Shown: positions 9,224 to 16,407 of the stretch, piece by piece | How the letters are laid out: each line of letters opens with the position of its first letter | Position numbering within the stretch: position 1 is the first letter of the stretch | Assembly (NCBI RefSeq): GCF_013376475.1 | Contig: NZ_CP045508.1 | Coordinates: forward strand, 2,392,001 to 2,456,000 | Origin: Desulfolutivibrio sulfoxidireducens | GTDB taxonomy: Bacteria; Desulfobacterota; Desulfovibrionia; Desulfovibrionales; Desulfovibrionaceae | DNA: 64,000 nucleotides | Direction of reading: 5' to 3' | The notes under the pieces: model-generated | What the model saw: the letters and a program-made list of their open reading frames with translations, nothing else | The model's database searches: none | What the model was told of the DNA's origin: nothing | Position numbers and translations under genes: made by a program

Positions 9224-10297
9224 TCATTGCGGCCTGGAACGACCCCGCCCGGTCGGGACGGCCGGCTGATCGTGCCCATGGTCGTGCGGATGGGCATGGG
9301 AATGATCGTGCGCATGTTCGTGGGCATGTTCGTGCGGATGGGCATGGGAATGATCGTGCGCATGTTCGTGGGCATGTTCGTGCGGATGGGCATGGGAATG
9401 TTCGTGCGCATGATCATGGGAATGTTCGTGCGGATGGGCATGGGAATGTTCGTGGGAATGCGGGGCGTCCCCCTCGTCGCCGGCCCGGTCCCGGCCGTCC
9501 CGAATGTCCGGGCGACCAAGCCGGGAGGGCTCCCCCAGGGCGAACACGGCCCCGTTGGGGACCCCGGGGATGATCCGGGTCCCGAAGGCCCGGGCCTGGC
9601 GCGTAAGGACCATGGCCGGCCAGTCCCTGAATTCGGCCTGAAAGGCGCGCAACAGGGCCGCCGCCGTGGGGGTCACGGTCTCCCCGGCCCCGGGGATGCC
9701 GTAGACCGGCATGCCCTCCAAAAGGGCCAGGGTGGCCGGGGCCGGCGTGGACAACAGCCCATGGGCGCAGGCCACCACCCCGTCGCTTACGGGCAGCGGC
9801 CCGCACACGAAGCGCGACGGCCCGATCAGGGCGAAAAGCTCGGCTGAAAGGCACACGTCCAGGATGCTGTCCAGGGCCCCGACCTCGTGGAAGGCCACGG
9901 CCTCAACAGCCACCCCGTGCACGGCGGCCTCGGCCCGGGCCAGTTCCTCGAAGGCGGCCAGGGCCAGCTCCCCGCCGCGCCGGGACATCCCGCTTTTCCC
10001 GATCAGCTCCCGGATGTCGGCCATGGTGGCATGGCGGTGGACGTGGGGCAGACGGATCTCGCAGCCGTAGCCGGAGATGCCGGACACGCTCCGGGGGACC
10101 ACCCGCAACGCCCCGGCCAGTTGCGGCGCGCCGAGCCGCGCGACCAGGGCCTCCACGGCGGCCGCGTCCAGGCCGGCCATACGGCACAACCCGGCCACGA
10201 ACATGTCCCCGGAGAGGCCCGACGGGGCGCGAAGGACCAGGATCGCGGCGGGCGCGGGCTCGCCGGAACCGCCAGACGAGGGAGAAAGGTCATGCAT
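9224..10297 (-). CDS. larC: LarC-like nickel insertion protein with His-rich tail
   Basis: A 357-residue protein that matches the LarC1 part of the nickel-pincer cofactor metallochelatase: APSGLSGDMFVAGL near residue 25, HVHRHATMADIRELI, FHEVGALDSILDVC near 137, and the GETVTPTAAALLRAF block near 205. LarC inserts Ni into the P2TMN precursor. From residue 280 to 343 it is almost only His alternating with Ala/Ser/Pro/Asp/Glu (period about 16 residues), a likely nickel store. The second LarC domain (LarC2), usual in the family, is absent, and only 200 bases remain before acs, so it is not supplied by frameshift. The start at 10297 overlaps the larB end by 8 bases. It is the last gene of the operon. 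Confidence 0.88.
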   Translation of the reverse strand: MHDLSPSSGGSGEPAPAAILVLRAPSGLSGDMFVAGLCRMAGLDAAAVEALVARLGAPQLAGALRVVPRSVSGISGYGCEIRLPHVHRHATMADIRELIGKSGMSRRGGELALAAFEELARAEAAVHGVAVEAVAFHEVGALDSILDVCLSAELFALIGPSRFVCGPLPVSDGVVACAHGLLSTPAPATLALLEGMPVYGIPGAGETVTPTAAALLRAFQAEFRDWPAMVLTRQARAFGTRIIPGVPNGAVFALGEPSRLGRPDIRDGRDRAGDEGDAPHSHEHSHAHPHEHSHDHAHEHSHAHPHEHAHEHAHDHSHAHPHEHAHEHAHDHSHAHPHDHGHDQPAVPTGRGRSRPQ

Positions 10298-10946
10298 GGT
10301 TGATGAGCCTGATGATCCGGGCCGCGGCGCAGGCCGCGCCATAGCCGTTGTCGATGTTGCATACGCCCACCCCGGGGGCGCAACTGGCCAGCATGGAGAA
10401 AAGCGCGGTACGGCCGCCCTCGGCCACGCCGTAGCCCACGGAGGTGGGCACGGCCATGACCGGTTTCGGGGTCAGTCCGCCCAGGACCGAGGCCAGGGCC
10501 GCGTCCATGCCGGCGACAACGATGACCACGTCGTGGGCGTTTATGGCCTCGAGATTCGCAGCGACCCGCCACAGCCCGGCCACGCCGTTGTCCTCGAAGA
10601 GGGTGTTTCCGATGCCCAGATAGTCCAGGGTGCGCCTGGCCTCGTGGGCCACGGGACCGTCCGAGGTGCCGGCCGAGACCACGGCCACCCGGCCGCGCGG
10701 TAGCGGCGGCAGGACGGCGGTATGGGCCGTGCGCGACAGTTCGTGGTAGTCGAGAAGGCGTTGCAGGCCCGGGTCCAGGGCCGCGAAGACCTCGGGGGCC
10801 AGCCGGGTGAAAAAAAGGGGCGATCCGCCGGGCCGGCCGTGCTCGGCAACCAGCCCGGCGATGACGCAAAGCGGCTTGCCCTGGCAAAAGACAGTCTCGG
10901 GCAGGCCGATGCGCTCCTGGCGGCTGTGGTCAAAGAGGATGCTCAT
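10290..10946 (-). CDS. larB: LarB, nicotinate-nucleotide carboxylase/hydrolase
   Basis: A 218-residue protein with a C-terminal PurE-like domain: VAVVSAGTSDGPVAHEARR, VVIVVAGMDAALASVLGGL, KPVMAVPTSVGYG and GVGVCNIDNGYGAA are typical of LarB. LarB carboxylates the pyridinium ring of NaAD and releases AMP, the first step of the nickel-pincer nucleotide cofactor. The N-terminus (HSRQERIGLPETVFCQGKP) is slightly shorter than in many homologs. The start overlaps the larE stop (ATGA), and the end overlaps larC, so the three lar genes are translationally coupled. Confidence 0.93.
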   Translation of the reverse strand: MSILFDHSRQERIGLPETVFCQGKPLCVIAGLVAEHGRPGGSPLFFTRLAPEVFAALDPGLQRLLDYHELSRTAHTAVLPPLPRGRVAVVSAGTSDGPVAHEARRTLDYLGIGNTLFEDNGVAGLWRVAANLEAINAHDVVIVVAGMDAALASVLGGLTPKPVMAVPTSVGYGVAEGGRTALFSMLASCAPGVGVCNIDNGYGAACAAARIIRLINHA

Positions 10947-11758
10947 GGCTTTCCGACAAAGGCCCGGCCCCGGGCGTAGCCCCGTGGGTCCAGTTCCACG
11001 GTTGCGAGAAAGGGAAAGCGGTCCGCGAACACCCGGCCGATTTCGGCCACGGCGGCCTCAAGTCCGGCCCGCATCCCGGGATCGTGAAGGATCTCGGGCG
11101 CGACCTCGATCCGGGCCGCGTCGCCCTCGATGCGGCAGCGCACCACAGGCAGGCCGCAGCGCCTGCGGACAAGCTCCTCGGCCGCGTCCACGGCCGCCAG
11201 ACGCTCACGGGTGATGACCGTGCCGGTGTGAATGCGGCTTCCCAGGCACGGCGAGGCCGGGATGTCGGCGAAACACAGCCCCATGGACCGGGCCATGGCC
11301 CGGATGGCGGCCTTGTCCATGCCGGCCTCGACAAAGGGGTGGCGCACCCCGGCCTCCCGGGCCGCGACCAGCCCGGGGCGGTAGTCGGAGAGGTCATCGC
11401 GATTCGTGCCGCTTATGATCGCCGCCGCGCCCGCGTCCCGGGCGATCCCGGCCAACGCCGCGTACAGATGCGACTTGCAGTGATAGCAGCGGTCCACGGG
11501 GTTTTGCAGGTAGCGCGGGTCGCGCATCTCCCCGGCGTCCACCTCGCGCACGGCGAAGCCCTCGTCCCGGGCGGTCCGGCGCAGGCGGGCGGCGTCCCCG
11601 GCCGGCACGGCCGGGGACGCGGCGTGGACCAGGATGGCCCCGCGTCCCAGGGTCCGATGGGCCACGACGGCCAGAAGCAGGCTGTCCACCCCGCCGCTGA
11701 CGGCTGCCACGCAGGACCCGTATCCGGCCAGGATGGTTTGGATGTCGGTGGGCATCAT
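10943..11758 (-). CDS. larE: LarE, ATP-dependent sacrificial sulfur transferase
   Basis: A 271-residue PP-loop protein: SGGVDSLLLAVVA is the pyrophosphatase loop, followed by CYHCKSHLY, GTNRDDLSDYRPGLVAAREAGVRHPF and ASPCLGSRI. LarE adenylates the biscarboxylated pyridine nucleotide and adds sulfur; in some LarE proteins one Cys is sacrificed, in others an Fe-S cluster is used. The Cys in SPCLGSR is at the site of the sacrificial Cys; two further Cys occur in CYHCK. Which sulfur mechanism applies cannot be decided by eye. It is 30 bases after the polyferredoxin gene and overlaps larB by 4 bases. A second Met two positions on is an alternative start. Confidence 0.93.
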   Translation of the reverse strand: MMPTDIQTILAGYGSCVAAVSGGVDSLLLAVVAHRTLGRGAILVHAASPAVPAGDAARLRRTARDEGFAVREVDAGEMRDPRYLQNPVDRCYHCKSHLYAALAGIARDAGAAAIISGTNRDDLSDYRPGLVAAREAGVRHPFVEAGMDKAAIRAMARSMGLCFADIPASPCLGSRIHTGTVITRERLAAVDAAEELVRRRCGLPVVRCRIEGDAARIEVAPEILHDPGMRAGLEAAVAEIGRVFADRFPFLATVELDPRGYARGRAFVGKP

Positions 11759-11788: not shown

Positions 11789-13471
11789 TCACGGCGAAAA
11801 TCCCGGGGGAAGATCGTTTGGGCCTTGACCTGACGGGGCCTGGGTCGGATCGCGATACGGCCCGTCGGGCCGGCGTTCGATGCGCAGTCCGGCGGCCCGC
11901 CCGGCCTCCCGGTAGGAGCCGGCGGCCAGCCTGGCCGCGCCCATGGGTTCGACCACGATGGCCGGCTTAGCGGTCACCGGACAGTGCCTCTCGCACCAGC
12001 CGCAGCCCGTGCACTTGTCCTCGAGGACAAACGGCACGGCAACGGAATGCCCCTCGATCATCAGAAACTGCAAGGCGTTGTACGGACAGACCTCGTCGCA
12101 CACAAGGCATTTCTTGTCGAACTCCCAGGCCAGGCACTTGTGGCGCAGAACATGCGCCGTGCCCATCCTGGCCCACATCTTTTCCTCGCCGGCAAGCTCC
12201 CGGATGGCCCCGGTGGGGCACACGGCGCCGCAGGCCGTACAGTCCGGCTGGCAGCCGCCGCGCCGGGCCATGGCCAGGGGCGAGAAAAGCCCGGTCCACC
12301 CGGTGGAAAACACGTCCGGCTGGAGCATGTTGGTGGGGCACACCCGCATGCAGGCCCCGCAGCGCACGCACCTGGCCAAAAAATCCGGTTCCGGGACCGC
12401 GCCCGGGGGCCGCACGGCCGCCGGGGACAGGGGCCGGCCCCCGGCGTCGTCGCCCCAGACGCCCTCCCGCAGGCCGGTCAGGCCGGTCACGGCCGCTCCC
12501 AGCCCCACGGCCCCGGCGGCCAGAAACTCCCGCCGGGATGGGGAAACGGGCTCATGGGCGGCCGCCGGCGGCGTCCCGGGACCGGTAAAGGGGGTAAACG
12601 AGATCGCCTTCTCGGGACAGGCCCCGAGGCAGGCCCGGCAGACGATGCATTCGGAAAAGATGGTGGTTTTCGGGTCGACCGGGATGGCCCCCATGGGACA
12701 GGCCCGGCGGCAGGCCCCGCATCCGGTGCAGCCCTCCCCCACCCGGCGGGCCACAAGCCTGGGCCTGCCGGAAAAAAGGGCCAGGATGGCCCCGGCCGGA
12801 CACAGGTACCGGCACCAGAAGCGGGGCTCGCGCCGGGCCAGGATAAAAAGGGTCCCGAAAAAGGCGACGATGAAAAGCTGCCCGGCGAACCGGTGCCCCG
12901 GCACGGAGGCGTATTTCAGGCCGATGAGCGACAAGGCCTCAAGCAGCGGATCAGCGGCGCGTAAAAAGCCGTTCGCGGCCAGTTCGGCGGCCGGCAAAAC
13001 AAAAAGCCCGTAAAACCGGGTGGCCAGCGACAGGGGGGAGACCCAAAACACCAGGGACACCCCGGCCAGGGCCGAGGCGAGCACGGCCGCCAGGACCAGA
13101 TATTTGAGCCGGCGCGGCCCGGCGGATCGGGACTGGCCGGCCCGCTCGACCGGATTGGCCGGGGGCCGGCGTTTCTCGCGTCCGACCAGACGCCCGGCCG
13201 CGTCCAGGGTGGCCCCCATGGGACAGATGTTGCCGCAAAACGCGCGACCGAAAACAAGCCCGGACAGGGTCACGACCCCGGCCAGCCACAGGGAGGCGGC
13301 CACGGCCCGGGCCGCGATGTCCGCGCCAAAAACCAGGACCGGATCGAGCCGCGAATAAAACCGGGCCAGTGCCGCGCCCGGCCCGGACATCCCGGAATCC
13401 CGGGCCATCGCCCACACGGCAAGGACAAAAAGCCCCAGGCTTATGCCTTGCGCCGCCCTTTTGATCCGCAT
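11789..13471 (-). CDS. NapH-NapG-like fusion: membrane polyferredoxin
   Basis: About 560 residues. The first part is NapH-like: transmembrane segments near 8-24, 55-75, 124-145 and 196-212, the conserved CGNICPMGA (79-87) and CRYLCPAGA (220-228) motifs, and two 4Fe-4S motifs (CTGCGACRRACP and CIVCRACLGACP, 248-286). At 311-332 comes PSRREFLAAGAVGLGAAVTG, a twin-arginine-like segment that normally starts a separate NapG-type protein. Four more cysteine clusters follow (368-379, 407-419, 446-462, 487-498). NapG and NapH normally pass quinol electrons to periplasmic reductases; here the electron acceptor is unknown. The start at 13471 overlaps the DUF362 stop as TGATG, and a longer frame to 13585 is rejected as antisense-like. 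It is co-transcribed with lar genes. Confidence 0.85.
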   Translation of the reverse strand: MRIKRAAQGISLGLFVLAVWAMARDSGMSGPGAALARFYSRLDPVLVFGADIAARAVAASLWLAGVVTLSGLVFGRAFCGNICPMGATLDAAGRLVGREKRRPPANPVERAGQSRSAGPRRLKYLVLAAVLASALAGVSLVFWVSPLSLATRFYGLFVLPAAELAANGFLRAADPLLEALSLIGLKYASVPGHRFAGQLFIVAFFGTLFILARREPRFWCRYLCPAGAILALFSGRPRLVARRVGEGCTGCGACRRACPMGAIPVDPKTTIFSECIVCRACLGACPEKAISFTPFTGPGTPPAAAHEPVSPSRREFLAAGAVGLGAAVTGLTGLREGVWGDDAGGRPLSPAAVRPPGAVPEPDFLARCVRCGACMRVCPTNMLQPDVFSTGWTGLFSPLAMARRGGCQPDCTACGAVCPTGAIRELAGEEKMWARMGTAHVLRHKCLAWEFDKKCLVCDEVCPYNALQFLMIEGHSVAVPFVLEDKCTGCGWCERHCPVTAKPAIVVEPMGAARLAAGSYREAGRAAGLRIERRPDGPYRDPTQAPSGQGPNDLPPGFSP

Positions 13472-14475
13472 CACACGCTCACGCGCGCCTCGCGCAGGTT
13501 TTCCACGTCCATGCGCCCCAGCCCCCTCTCGTGGGCCAGGGCGATGTGCCTGACCTGGCGGGGGGCGAAACGCCGGCCGTACCATTCGGAAAGGACCACT
13601 GTGCGGGCGTCGGCGGCCACGGGATCGCGCGAGGCGATGACCGTGTCCAGGGCGTCCACCTTGCCCGGCCCGCCCGGGCCGTTGGTGGTCAGGACCCGGG
13701 TGGCGTCCACCACCACCAGGGCCGGCTTAAGCAGGGTGTTCAGATCCACGATGGCCACGCTTAAATCATGCCCCGAATGCATGATCCCCCGATCGAAGAT
13801 GAGCCCCATCATGTTCTTCATGGACAGGGAGACCCCGGCCGAGGAATGGGACTTGGCCACGGGCGCGGAGATGAGCACATCGGCGTCCAGGACGTCGGCC
13901 ATGACCCGGGTGGTCTTCATGGACGCGCCGCCCGGGATGGGGACCTCGCGGTAGAACCGGGGGTCGCTGAGGCCGTGCACGATGCCCCGGATCACGGACT
14001 CGCAGGAGTCGGCCACCCCGGATCGCTCCAGGCAGGCCCCGACGTCGTAGAGGGTATGGTCCAGGACCGTGATCCGGGCGGCCCCGGCCTCGCGGCACAG
14101 GACCACCAGTTCCCGGACCACCTCGGGATGGGTGGTGGTGGCGGCCTCGGGGGGATTGGGAAAGGACATGTTGGGCTTGATGACCACCCGGCTGCCGGGC
14201 GTGACGAAGGCGGCCATGCCGCCCAGAAGCCCCACGGCGGCCCGGGTGGCGGCGGCGGGCCGGCCCGTGGCCAGGGCCAGATCCGGGGTGTCGTCGGCCA
14301 GGGCCCGGCACGGCCCCGCCAGTCCGGCCGCGCCGGCCATGCCGACGGTCCCGGCCGCAAGCCACAAAGCGCCCCGCACCTGCCATTTGAGAAAATCCCG
14401 GCGGCTCAAAAACGCGCCCGCCCCGCGCGGCGCGGGGACACGGCCAAGTGGATCGCCATGAAATCGTTGCGGCAT
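13471..14475 (-). CDS. Tat-exported DUF362 protein
   Basis: About 334 residues. The N-terminal region has SRRDFLKW followed by a hydrophobic stretch (GALWLAAGTVGMAGAAGLAG), a twin-arginine signal for folded cofactor-bearing proteins. The body matches DUF362: GSRVVIKPNMSFPNPPEAATTTHPE, ISAPVAKSHSSAGVSLSMKNMMGLI and DATRVLTTNGPGGPGKV. DUF362 proteins often co-occur with ferredoxins; their reaction is not established. The start at 14475 is preceded by AGGAGGGGAGG at ideal spacing. It overlaps the NapHG-like fusion gene, so the two products probably act together at the outer face of the membrane. Confidence 0.85.
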   Translation of the reverse strand: MPQRFHGDPLGRVPAPRGAGAFLSRRDFLKWQVRGALWLAAGTVGMAGAAGLAGPCRALADDTPDLALATGRPAAATRAAVGLLGGMAAFVTPGSRVVIKPNMSFPNPPEAATTTHPEVVRELVVLCREAGAARITVLDHTLYDVGACLERSGVADSCESVIRGIVHGLSDPRFYREVPIPGGASMKTTRVMADVLDADVLISAPVAKSHSSAGVSLSMKNMMGLIFDRGIMHSGHDLSVAIVDLNTLLKPALVVVDATRVLTTNGPGGPGKVDALDTVIASRDPVAADARTVVLSEWYGRRFAPRQVRHIALAHERGLGRMDVENLREARVSV

Positions 14476-14599
14476 CCTCCCCTCCTGACGGGATCGCCCC
14501 CCGGAAAAGCCCATCGGACGCCCCGCGAGACCTGACCGCACCCGCCCGGCAACGGCCGCCGGGCAAAGGCGCGCCGTCGCCCCCTGTCAAGGACGCGGC

Positions 14600-15019
14600 T
14601 CACCTGGCCCGGGCCGAGGCCTCCTCCATGACCTTCACGGCATGGGCCTCTACCATGTCGGCCAGTTCTTCCGCGTACTCCTTGTCCTCGGTACGCTCAT
14701 ACACATGCTCACGAAAAGGCTCCAAAAGGCTTGAACAGGCGGTGCAGGCGGATTTGGCCGCCTCGGAGGAAAATCCCTTCTTTCCGATCCGGGCCTTGAC
14801 ATAGGAGGCAAAGGCACAGTCCTGGAACGGTTTGATCATGGCCAGGATGGCCGCGCCGGGCAAGCCGGGGGCCGCGATTTGGGCGTTGGAGGGGATCTGA
14901 GCCACCATCCGGTCATAATCGGCCGAAGCGCCCTTTTCGGCCTGGCATCCCCACATCCCTGAAAGACAGGCCATCACGGCCACAACCGCCGGGAGCGCAT
15001 GAAACCGACGACATGTCAT
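14600..15019 (-). CDS. small exported Cys-containing protein, unknown
   Basis: A 139-residue protein with an N-terminal signal sequence (ALPAVVAVMACLSGMWGC), where the Cys could be a lipidation site although the lipobox (MWGC) is poor. The mature part is helical, with QDCAF and SACTACSSLL cysteines, and ends in a charged helix. I do not recognise a family. The start at 15019 follows AAGGAGG and overlaps the upstream gene by ATGA, so translational coupling is likely. It lies 124 bases before the DUF362 gene in the same direction. Confidence 0.65.
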   Translation of the reverse strand: MTCRRFHALPAVVAVMACLSGMWGCQAEKGASADYDRMVAQIPSNAQIAAPGLPGAAILAMIKPFQDCAFASYVKARIGKKGFSSEAAKSACTACSSLLEPFREHVYERTEDKEYAEELADMVEAHAVKVMEEASARAR

Positions 15020-15294
15020 GGCGTACCTCCTTTTTTGCCGTCGGAGAGACATCCGGCCAGCTTTTCGATCTGGGCCGGGGCGCGGGACGCCAGCAGATCT
15101 TCAAGGGTCTTGCGACCGAGCTTGCGCCCGATTTTGCCCAAATCCCGGCTTGAGGGGGTTCTGGAGAACTTCATGACCACCACCTCGCCGGTCAGGGGGT
15201 TGGTGACGTCCCGCTCGGCCAGGGCGGCCGGGACGAACGATACCATGGCCAGGACCGCGATGGCGGCGGCCGCTCCACACGTGGCGATGCGCAT
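15016..15294 (-). CDS. small exported protein, unknown
   Basis: A 92-residue protein: signal peptide MRIATCGAAAAIAVLAMVSF with cleavage after ALA, then a short basic/acidic domain (TNPLTGEVVVMKFSRTPSS, LGRKTLEDLLASRAPAQIEKLAGCLSDG). No family is recognised. It begins 32 bases after the FecR-like gene and overlaps the next small exported protein by 4 bases, so all three are likely one transcript. Confidence 0.65.
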   Translation of the reverse strand: MRIATCGAAAAIAVLAMVSFVPAALAERDVTNPLTGEVVVMKFSRTPSSRDLGKIGRKLGRKTLEDLLASRAPAQIEKLAGCLSDGKKGGTP

Positions 15295-15326: not shown

Positions 15327-15995
15327 TCAGCAGCCGCCGCCGGATGAGGGATCGGCCGGGCCGGGAGCGAGGCGGTCCAGGGCGGACTTGACCGCCGGGG
15401 GCGTGGGTTCCGGGGCGGCCATGGGCTTGCCGCGTTCCTTGGCCACGCTCATGCCCTCCCGGACCTCCACCGTGGCCCCGAACTCCCTGTCCGTGACCAC
15501 GGCTGGACCGCCGGAAAGCACGCTCACCCGGCCGGACGCGGCCGAGGCGGCGATGCCCAGGTCCGTGCCGCGCACCCCGATGTCCAGAAGCGGGGTCTCG
15601 ACCTTGAAGCTTTCCGGGCGTTTGGCGGCCATCTTTCCGGTGACCACGCGCATAAGGCCCACAGCGGACCTGACGACCATGGCGTTTGCGTCCGGGGGGT
15701 TGTCGTAGGCGTAGACGTAGCCGGCCAGCTCGATTTCGCTCTCGGCGTCCATGACCAGGACGGACTGGTCGATGAACTGGAACTGGGCCTTGGAACTCTT
15801 GCCCGTTCGGGCCGTGTCGGACTGGAAGACGCAATCGGCGGCGGCGATCACCCGCTCGTCCTGTCCGGGCAGTCTGGCGGTGACCGTGCCCTGGACGAGC
15901 TGGGCGTGCCCGACGGGTCCCGCCTCCCGGGCCGGCGCGATCGACGCGGCGAACAGCAGGAAGAGACAGAGAAAAGCCGAGACACGTGTCTTCAT
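15327..15995 (-). CDS. FecR-domain exported protein
   Basis: About 222 residues with a signal peptide (FLCLFLLFAASIAPA) and a FecR-like domain: GTVTARLPGQDERVIAAADCVFQSDTARTGKSSKAQFQFID, then the strand pattern MDAESEIELAGYVY and ETPLLDIGVRGTDLGI. In Gram-negative signalling FecR couples receptors to ECF sigma factors, but stand-alone exported FecR-domain proteins without a sigma factor, as here, have unclear roles, perhaps envelope scaffolding. The start at 15995 is supported by GAGGTGG and by the signal peptide. It is the first gene of the run that ends in larC. A related domain occurs at 62366-63486. Confidence 0.8.
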   Translation of the reverse strand: MKTRVSAFLCLFLLFAASIAPAREAGPVGHAQLVQGTVTARLPGQDERVIAAADCVFQSDTARTGKSSKAQFQFIDQSVLVMDAESEIELAGYVYAYDNPPDANAMVVRSAVGLMRVVTGKMAAKRPESFKVETPLLDIGVRGTDLGIAASAASGRVSVLSGGPAVVTDREFGATVEVREGMSVAKERGKPMAAPEPTPPAVKSALDRLAPGPADPSSGGGC

Positions 15996-16407
15996 CGTTA
16001 TGCCACCTCGCGTGCGGTCTTGGAACGACGTTTGGGAACCAACGCCTCCGGATACGACGCAGGGCGTCACGGCCGGGACACGGAGATACCATCCCAGGGA
16101 CGCGCATCTCGACTGACCGTATAGTTTTTACACTCCGGAAACGGGCCGCGTCAACACCCATCCGAAACCGTTTCCACCCGGCGTCCCAAAGGCGTTCGCC
16201 ATCACCCGGCCCTGTCCGGACGGACGCGGCCAACCCTTTCCCCGGCCGACCCTGCACATACCTGCACACAATATGTGCACAAGCTTGCACATAAAAGGGA
16301 AGAACCCTGGCGTACCGGACAATCCCCAGGTGCAAAGACGGAAAACACGATATGCGCGCCCGGTTTACGGGGAAAGGCACGGTTCTTGATGAGGGGGACC
16401 TGGAGGC

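Follow-up and report, generated by a model that had tools for sequence, protein, structure and literature searches.

The window analyzed here, a stretch of 64,000 nucleotides of Desulfolutivibrio sulfoxidireducens (contig NZ_CP045508.1, positions 2,392,001 to 2,456,000), contains a gene for a polytopic polyferredoxin of 560 amino acids (11789..13471, minus strand), recognized as a NapH-NapG fusion from its open reading frame and translation and from the NapH- and NapG-family models. Our results indicate that this protein is very probably a dual Sec/Tat-targeted membrane polyferredoxin whose C-terminal Fe-S domain is exported by the Tat pathway.

The polyferredoxin frame runs from ATG to TGA, and its start codon overlaps the stop of the DUF362 gene upstream. 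A longer frame starting at 13585 was rejected, as its start falls within the DUF362 gene and the alignments of several relatives begin at residue 1 of the protein starting at 13471. The NapH-like half (residues 1-290; 12602..13471, minus strand) has Fer4_5 and Fer4 matches and contains four predicted helices, two CX3CP motifs (C79-C83 and C220-C224) and two [4Fe-4S] ferredoxin motifs (C248-C258 and C275-C285); the ferredoxin motifs are predicted to lie on the cytoplasmic side, in keeping with the loop charges. It is followed by the internal twin-arginine segment PSRREFLAAGAVGLGAAVTG at residues 311-330 (12482..12541, minus strand), identified in the translation, the alignment and the predicted model, where helix TM5 spans residues 313-332. 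An earlier note on this DNA had placed the segment after two cytoplasmic-type ferredoxin motifs and before four more clusters, and this position was exact in the 560-residue translation. The NapG-like half (residues 354-500; 11972..12412, minus strand), delimited by family models, cysteine motifs and alignment, carries four [4Fe-4S] clusters (C368-C378, C407-C418, C446-C462, and C487-C497) and is predicted to be periplasmic. The protein has 28 cysteines, 12 before the twin arginine and 16 after it, which were invariant in all 46 aligned sequences. They match the seven-cluster layout of the homologue Q1NSB0, with three clusters inside and four outside, the clusters here being predicted from motifs. 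Searched by sequence against solved structures, the polyferredoxin gave matches to cluster domains only, the best of which covers part of the protein. A second NapH-like Fer4_5 match was observed in the same genome (C1:3744094-3744222), within a frame of 647 residues.

The family models meet at the fusion joint. In a scan that was run on the longer frame, so that its numbers were shifted by 38, the best stretch of the NapH-type model TIGR02163 corresponded to residues 195-293 and ended just before the twin-arginine segment. The NapG model covered residues 308-522, with its position 6 at residue 308. The scores were below the family cut-offs, at 104.6 bits against 269 for the NapG equivalog NF007012, 79.8 against 234 for the NapH model NF007013, and 82.3 against 213.05 for TIGR02163. 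The proposed NapH-NapG fusion was thus borne out in that each half aligns with its respective family model, though at scores below the cut-offs of both families. Because the NapG model aligns onto the twin-arginine segment almost from its first position, the segment appears to be NapG's own Tat signal, retained where the end of NapH meets the start of NapG. No nap gene was recognized among the seven proteins scanned around the polyferredoxin, and no split NapH/NapG pair was evident among the matches listed, leaving aside a few short ones (such as L033 and G063). The suggestion that homologs encoded as separate genes carry the same Tat segment also found support, as the NapG family model takes in the segment from position 6 and distant homologues are reported, in the available text of PMC5449189, to be widespread as separate NapH and NapG polypeptides.

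Of the 141 distinct homologous sequences collected from the 156 polyferredoxin-holding loci among 157 searched, 138 have the twin arginine; some of the 141 may derive from a single gene delimited differently at two loci. Two distant polyferredoxins (L185 and L189) have KR instead of RR before TM5, and one sequence (L033) does not span the site. In two alignments, of 25 sequences and of 46 sequences with the window protein included, R313 and R314 were invariant. The peptide patterns used to gather 80 named loci left the twin arginine out. Mean pairwise identity was 17.5% in the linker (residues 291-312), 33% in TM5, 20% after TM5 (residues 335-353), and 57% in the NapG half. Since the twin arginine persists in 138 of 141 sequences amid a poorly conserved linker, it is real and beyond chance. 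In addition, the homologues mostly have F/L and L/I at the third and fourth positions past the first arginine, as in Tat motifs.

A Tat signal at this place might also be cleaved. If signal peptidase cut after TM5 once Tat had exported the NapG half, separate NapH-like and NapG-like products would result, as in split systems, and the N-terminus of the NapG model does take in the signal segment. However, few positions are conserved in residues 335-353, and most homologues among the matches listed are still encoded in one frame of roughly 500 to 680 amino acids, so that constant cleavage is hard to square with them; we regard this reading as improbable and prefer a polyferredoxin that stays in one piece.

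The polyferredoxin model, predicted by AlphaFold2 with 46 sequences (pTM 0.86 for the whole protein), contains helices at residues 2-24, 61-74, 119-135 with 146-172 (broken), and 198-214, followed by the helix at 313-332. The last of these was confidently predicted, with a mean pLDDT of 92-94 over residues 311-330. Thus, four predicted helices precede the twin arginine and one directly follows it, in agreement with the even-number criterion of dual Sec/Tat polyferredoxins. The hydropathy maxima agree with the predicted helices, and weaker maxima lie near cysteine motifs at 223-241 and 465-484. The N-terminus has a mean net charge of +47 per 100 residues (35 sequences), and the corresponding values over 46 sequences were -1.1 for loop 1, +10.5 for loop 2, +1.2 for loop 3, +5.5 for the ferredoxin loop, and -1.3 after TM5. 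These charges fit an arrangement with the N-terminus and the ferredoxin domain inside and the NapG half outside. We infer a topology for the window polyferredoxin in which the NapG-like half is periplasmic. The genome also holds tat genes, with two matches to TatC and two to TatA/B/E.

Such proteins have been described before. Tooke et al. (2017) found a family of polytopic polyferredoxins by joint prediction of Tat signals and helices (PMC5449189). One member, Q1NSB0 of the delta proteobacterium MLMS-1, was described as a fusion of NapH and NapG that has five helices and seven clusters split three/four; according to the available text, reporters fused after its TMD5 were exported in a Tat-dependent manner and changing RR to KK abolished export (PMC5449189). 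The signal for release from Sec was proposed there to consist of a weakly hydrophobic TMD5 and the positive charges following it (PMC5449189). Dual Sec/Tat assembly as in Rieske proteins, with a hand-over from Sec to Tat, is therefore a published mechanism for the homologue Q1NSB0 (PMC5449189, in its available text), and the idea of dual Sec/Tat use as in Rieske-type proteins, raised in the earlier note, agrees with it. Likewise, the claim that the middle of a polytopic protein holds a Tat signal by which a folded Fe-S domain is exported is supported by the twin arginine in 138/141 sequences, the NapG-model alignment and the homologue tested in that paper.

The release signals of TM5 were less clear. 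On a simple summed Hessa scale, TM5 had the lowest hydrophobicity when averaged over homologues, but among the 37 homologues scorable for all five helices, only 22 had it as their least hydrophobic one; in this copy the sums were 4.82 for TM1, 2.51 for TM4, and 2.15 for TM5, which is not the least hydrophobic helix. The scale values were simply added, whereas a server was used in PMC5449189. In this copy, residues 333-353 include three acidic residues besides two positive ones; at least one positive residue occurs there in 43 of the 46 sequences and none in 3. The window polyferredoxin matches the architecture of the 2017 class and lies in between on the TM5 release signals. A TM5 no less hydrophobic than TM1 or TM4 on this simple scale is what might be expected if Sec alone inserted TM5 and the twin arginine were a relic of NapG. 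However, a relic would be expected to erode, yet the twin arginine is kept in 138 of 141 sequences while its flanks diverge; the domain with four [4Fe-4S] clusters would need to be threaded unfolded, and the homologue tested in PMC5449189 needs Tat, as its available text states. Insertion by Sec alone is thus very unlikely in our view, and release of TM5 to Tat is the reading that we retain.

Under dual Sec/Tat targeting, Sec would insert the four NapH-type helices co-translationally with the N-terminus inside, and the ferredoxin domain would stay cytoplasmic with two clusters, plus one more if both CX3CP motifs jointly bind one. The fifth helix, with the twin arginine just ahead of it as the retained NapG Tat signal, would be let go by Sec. 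The C-terminal domain would then fold with its four [4Fe-4S] clusters, and Tat would integrate the helix, leaving the domain periplasmic. The outcome would be a one-piece, seven-cluster wire spanning the membrane. The DUF362 protein encoded immediately upstream, which is likely a Tat substrate too, would be the most probable partner for electron exchange; this partnership and the direction of electron flow are proposed from the arrangement described here.

The DUF362 protein (13471..14541, minus strand; Pfam DUF362, PF04015, E 4.3e-49) has an N-terminal twin arginine (R47 R48) and, by fold search, a predicted LarA-like fold. Its gene lies directly upstream of the polyferredoxin gene, with its stop overlapping the polyferredoxin start. 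A DUF362 match upstream on the same strand was found at 135 of the 156 polyferredoxin loci, with a median gap between matches of 78 bases and a largest gap of 1430. At the other 21 loci none was found with a single query, which divergent copies may escape, and six of these have less than 500 bases of upstream DNA. Several loci, L106, L108, L113, L116, L139, L141, L053, and L016 among others, had no DUF362 match despite 1.4 to 4 kb of upstream sequence, so the pairing is not absolute. Among the distinct DUF362 copies with a readable N-terminus, 114 of 117 carry a twin arginine at some point of the open frame ahead of the DUF362 domain. The twin arginine would place this partner outside, which supports a periplasmic NapG half. 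It also bears on the possibility that the helix with the twin arginine is unused and both ferredoxin halves are cytoplasmic. Such an arrangement is hard to reconcile with a Tat motif in the adjoining protein, with a near-invariant twin arginine heading a separate predicted helix of 20 residues, or with the published homologue (PMC5449189, available text), and we consider it extremely improbable; a periplasmic NapG half is the better reading. No function of the DUF362 neighbor was found in the openly licensed PMC literature, and its frequent presence makes it a candidate periplasmic partner for membrane polyferredoxin wires. Farther upstream are a small protein with no family match that looks lipoprotein-like by eye (14600-15052, minus strand) and a FecR-domain protein (15327-16070, minus strand), both of which also occur in locus L062.

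The predicted structure of the DUF362 protein had a mean pLDDT of 86.3. A Foldseek search (E<=0.001) returned 19 chains, 18 of them named lactate/malate racemases or LarA-like and the other an unnamed Thermotoga maritima protein (4nar). Structural alignment gave Z scores of 15.1-19.1 over 206-214 residues, and the next match had a Z of 5.7; residues 92-322 aligned with LarA 34-270 (9eia_A) at Z 19.1 and an rmsd of 2.6 over 208 residues. The DUF362 partner is thus predicted to have the fold of the LarA N-terminal domain, and the fold alone shows no function. By sequence, DUF362 was the sole Pfam match of the protein at E<=0.001, Lar_N (PF09861) was not matched, and nothing significant was found among solved structures (best E 0.41). 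A kinship between DUF362 and LarA is already known because both belong to Pfam clan CL0471, and DUF362 has been used as an outgroup (PMC11770544, available text).

The motif H232-x9-K242-x12-H255 of the DUF362 protein (13777..13848, minus strand) is in line with H-x9-K-x15-H of LarA by alignment and motif spacing. We take the LarA residues to be H174, K184, and H200 in L. plantarum numbering, of which K184, the cofactor lysine, and H200 have a role in LarA. The role of H174 is taken from PMC11770544, in its available text. K242 and H255 were present in 48 of 48 DUF362 sequences and H232 in 47 of 48, and K-x-H-x9-K was present in 116 of 123 distinct DUF362 copies; among the 7 that lack it are fragments and a KTN variant. 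The profile alignment of DUF362 with LarA was weak (E 0.028, probability 1.7), and the residue pairing rests on that alignment and the spacing. What is new here is the putative alignment of near-invariant H232, K242, and H255 with the His, Lys, and His of LarA.

Three lar genes lie next to the polyferredoxin gene on the same strand. The larE gene (10943..11758, minus strand; TIGR00268, 255.4 bits, cut-off 150) is directly downstream, followed by larB (10290..10946, minus strand; NF033503, 239.1 bits, cut-off 175) and a larC-like gene (9224..10342, minus strand) that holds only the N-terminal part of LarC (PF01969 positions 1-229 of 375; TIGR00299 LarC1, 158 bits, cut-off 90) and then a His-rich tail. 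The LarC-like match also stops at 229 in a genome of the same genus, G002 (positions 2-229), and the C-terminal half of LarC was seen in neither genome. With this truncation and the His-rich tail, the larC-like gene may fail to yield the usual cofactor. Lar_N was not matched at E<=0.001 anywhere in the genome, nor in G001 of the same genus. According to the available text of PMC11796402, larB, larE, and larC occur in the absence of larA in about 15% of surveyed genomes, the cofactor-using protein there is not known, and for cyanobacteria a distinct sequence and fold is expected.

The LarA-like fold, the kept residues and the adjacent lar genes suggest a periplasmic nickel-pincer protein. In its full form, this reading would have the DUF362 protein exported by Tat as an enzyme of LarA fold. 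Its nickel-pincer nucleotide would come from the neighboring larE-larB-larC-like genes, the dual-targeted polyferredoxin would connect it to the electron pool of the cell, and it would be one of the missing clients of larA-less genomes; we regard this full form as unlikely, with a small chance of being right. Among eight hand-picked relatives, the four with LarC have 3 to 7 DUF362 matches and the four without it have 0, 0, 1, and 2 weak ones, a contrast in favor of this reading, although the sample is tiny, was chosen by hand, and has genome size as a confounder. Fourteen control genomes were mixed, with DUF362 present in four and absent from two of the 6 LarC-positive genomes and present in one of the 8 LarC-negative genomes. 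Across 297 genomes, the polyferredoxin was found in 27 of 45 LarC-negative and 152 of 252 LarC-positive ones, 60% of each class, and there is therefore no overall association between the polyferredoxin and LarC. Close polyferredoxin matches (E<1e-100) occurred in 47 genomes, 10 of them without LarC; each of the 10 is at most 93% complete, so the absence of LarC may be due to missing sequence. K-x-H-x9-K was present in 14 of 14 polyferredoxin-adjoining DUF362 copies from LarC-negative genomes and in both other DUF362 proteins of this genome; the motif, kept where LarC is lacking, does not single out nickel-pincer users. LarE/LarB stood beside the pair at 2 of 137 loci (L005 and L062, which represent one and the same contig), in this genus only, and many loci reach only about 1.5 kb past the gene. 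In G002, a third member of the genus, larB and a larC-like gene are present, with no polyferredoxin match. Co-occurrence across genomes thus does not support the nickel-pincer reading. Two genomes of one genus (G045 and G053) have a nearly full-length LarC match and no LarB above the family cut-off. A link between DUF362 and nickel-pincer use was not found in any openly licensed PMC paper, except for the outgroup role in the available text of PMC11770544. If DUF362 proteins do bind the nickel-pincer cofactor, the cofactor user in larA-less genomes becomes directly testable.

Polyferredoxin matches (E<=1e-20) were found in at least 179 of 297 genomes of the phylum, this genome included; the survey scored 4 candidates per genome, and the counts are lower bounds. 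In a set of relatives, 28 of 59 genomes, again with this one included, had a match at the same threshold. The polyferredoxin is therefore an ordinary gene of the group, and the fusion is not unusual. Since such proteins have been described before and are widespread, the window protein adds a clear case and not a new kind, and the class defined in 2017 gains this case and a count showing that it is common in the phylum and not exotic.

Compared with known systems, the DUF362 partner resembles LarA in its predicted N-terminal fold, in H-x9-K followed by His, and in belonging to the same clan, CL0471 (PMC11770544, available text). It differs in the spacing to the last His, x12 against x15, in having no match to the LarA C-terminal domain, and in carrying a Tat motif. 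The polyferredoxin halves align with the models of NapH and NapG of periplasmic nitrate reductase systems, but here they form one fused chain with scores below the cut-offs and a DUF362 neighbor. The Sec-then-Tat assembly logic is the same as that of the actinobacterial Rieske protein Sco2149 and the MoCo protein Sco3746, as given in the available text of PMC5449189, whereas their domains and cofactors are unrelated to those of the polyferredoxin. The likeness to Q1NSB0 extends to five helices, the twin arginine directly before the fifth, and seven [4Fe-4S] clusters split three/four. Compared by description and not by sequence alignment, TMD5 of Q1NSB0 lies at 338-359 and the predicted helix here at 313-332, with mixed charges following it in the window protein.
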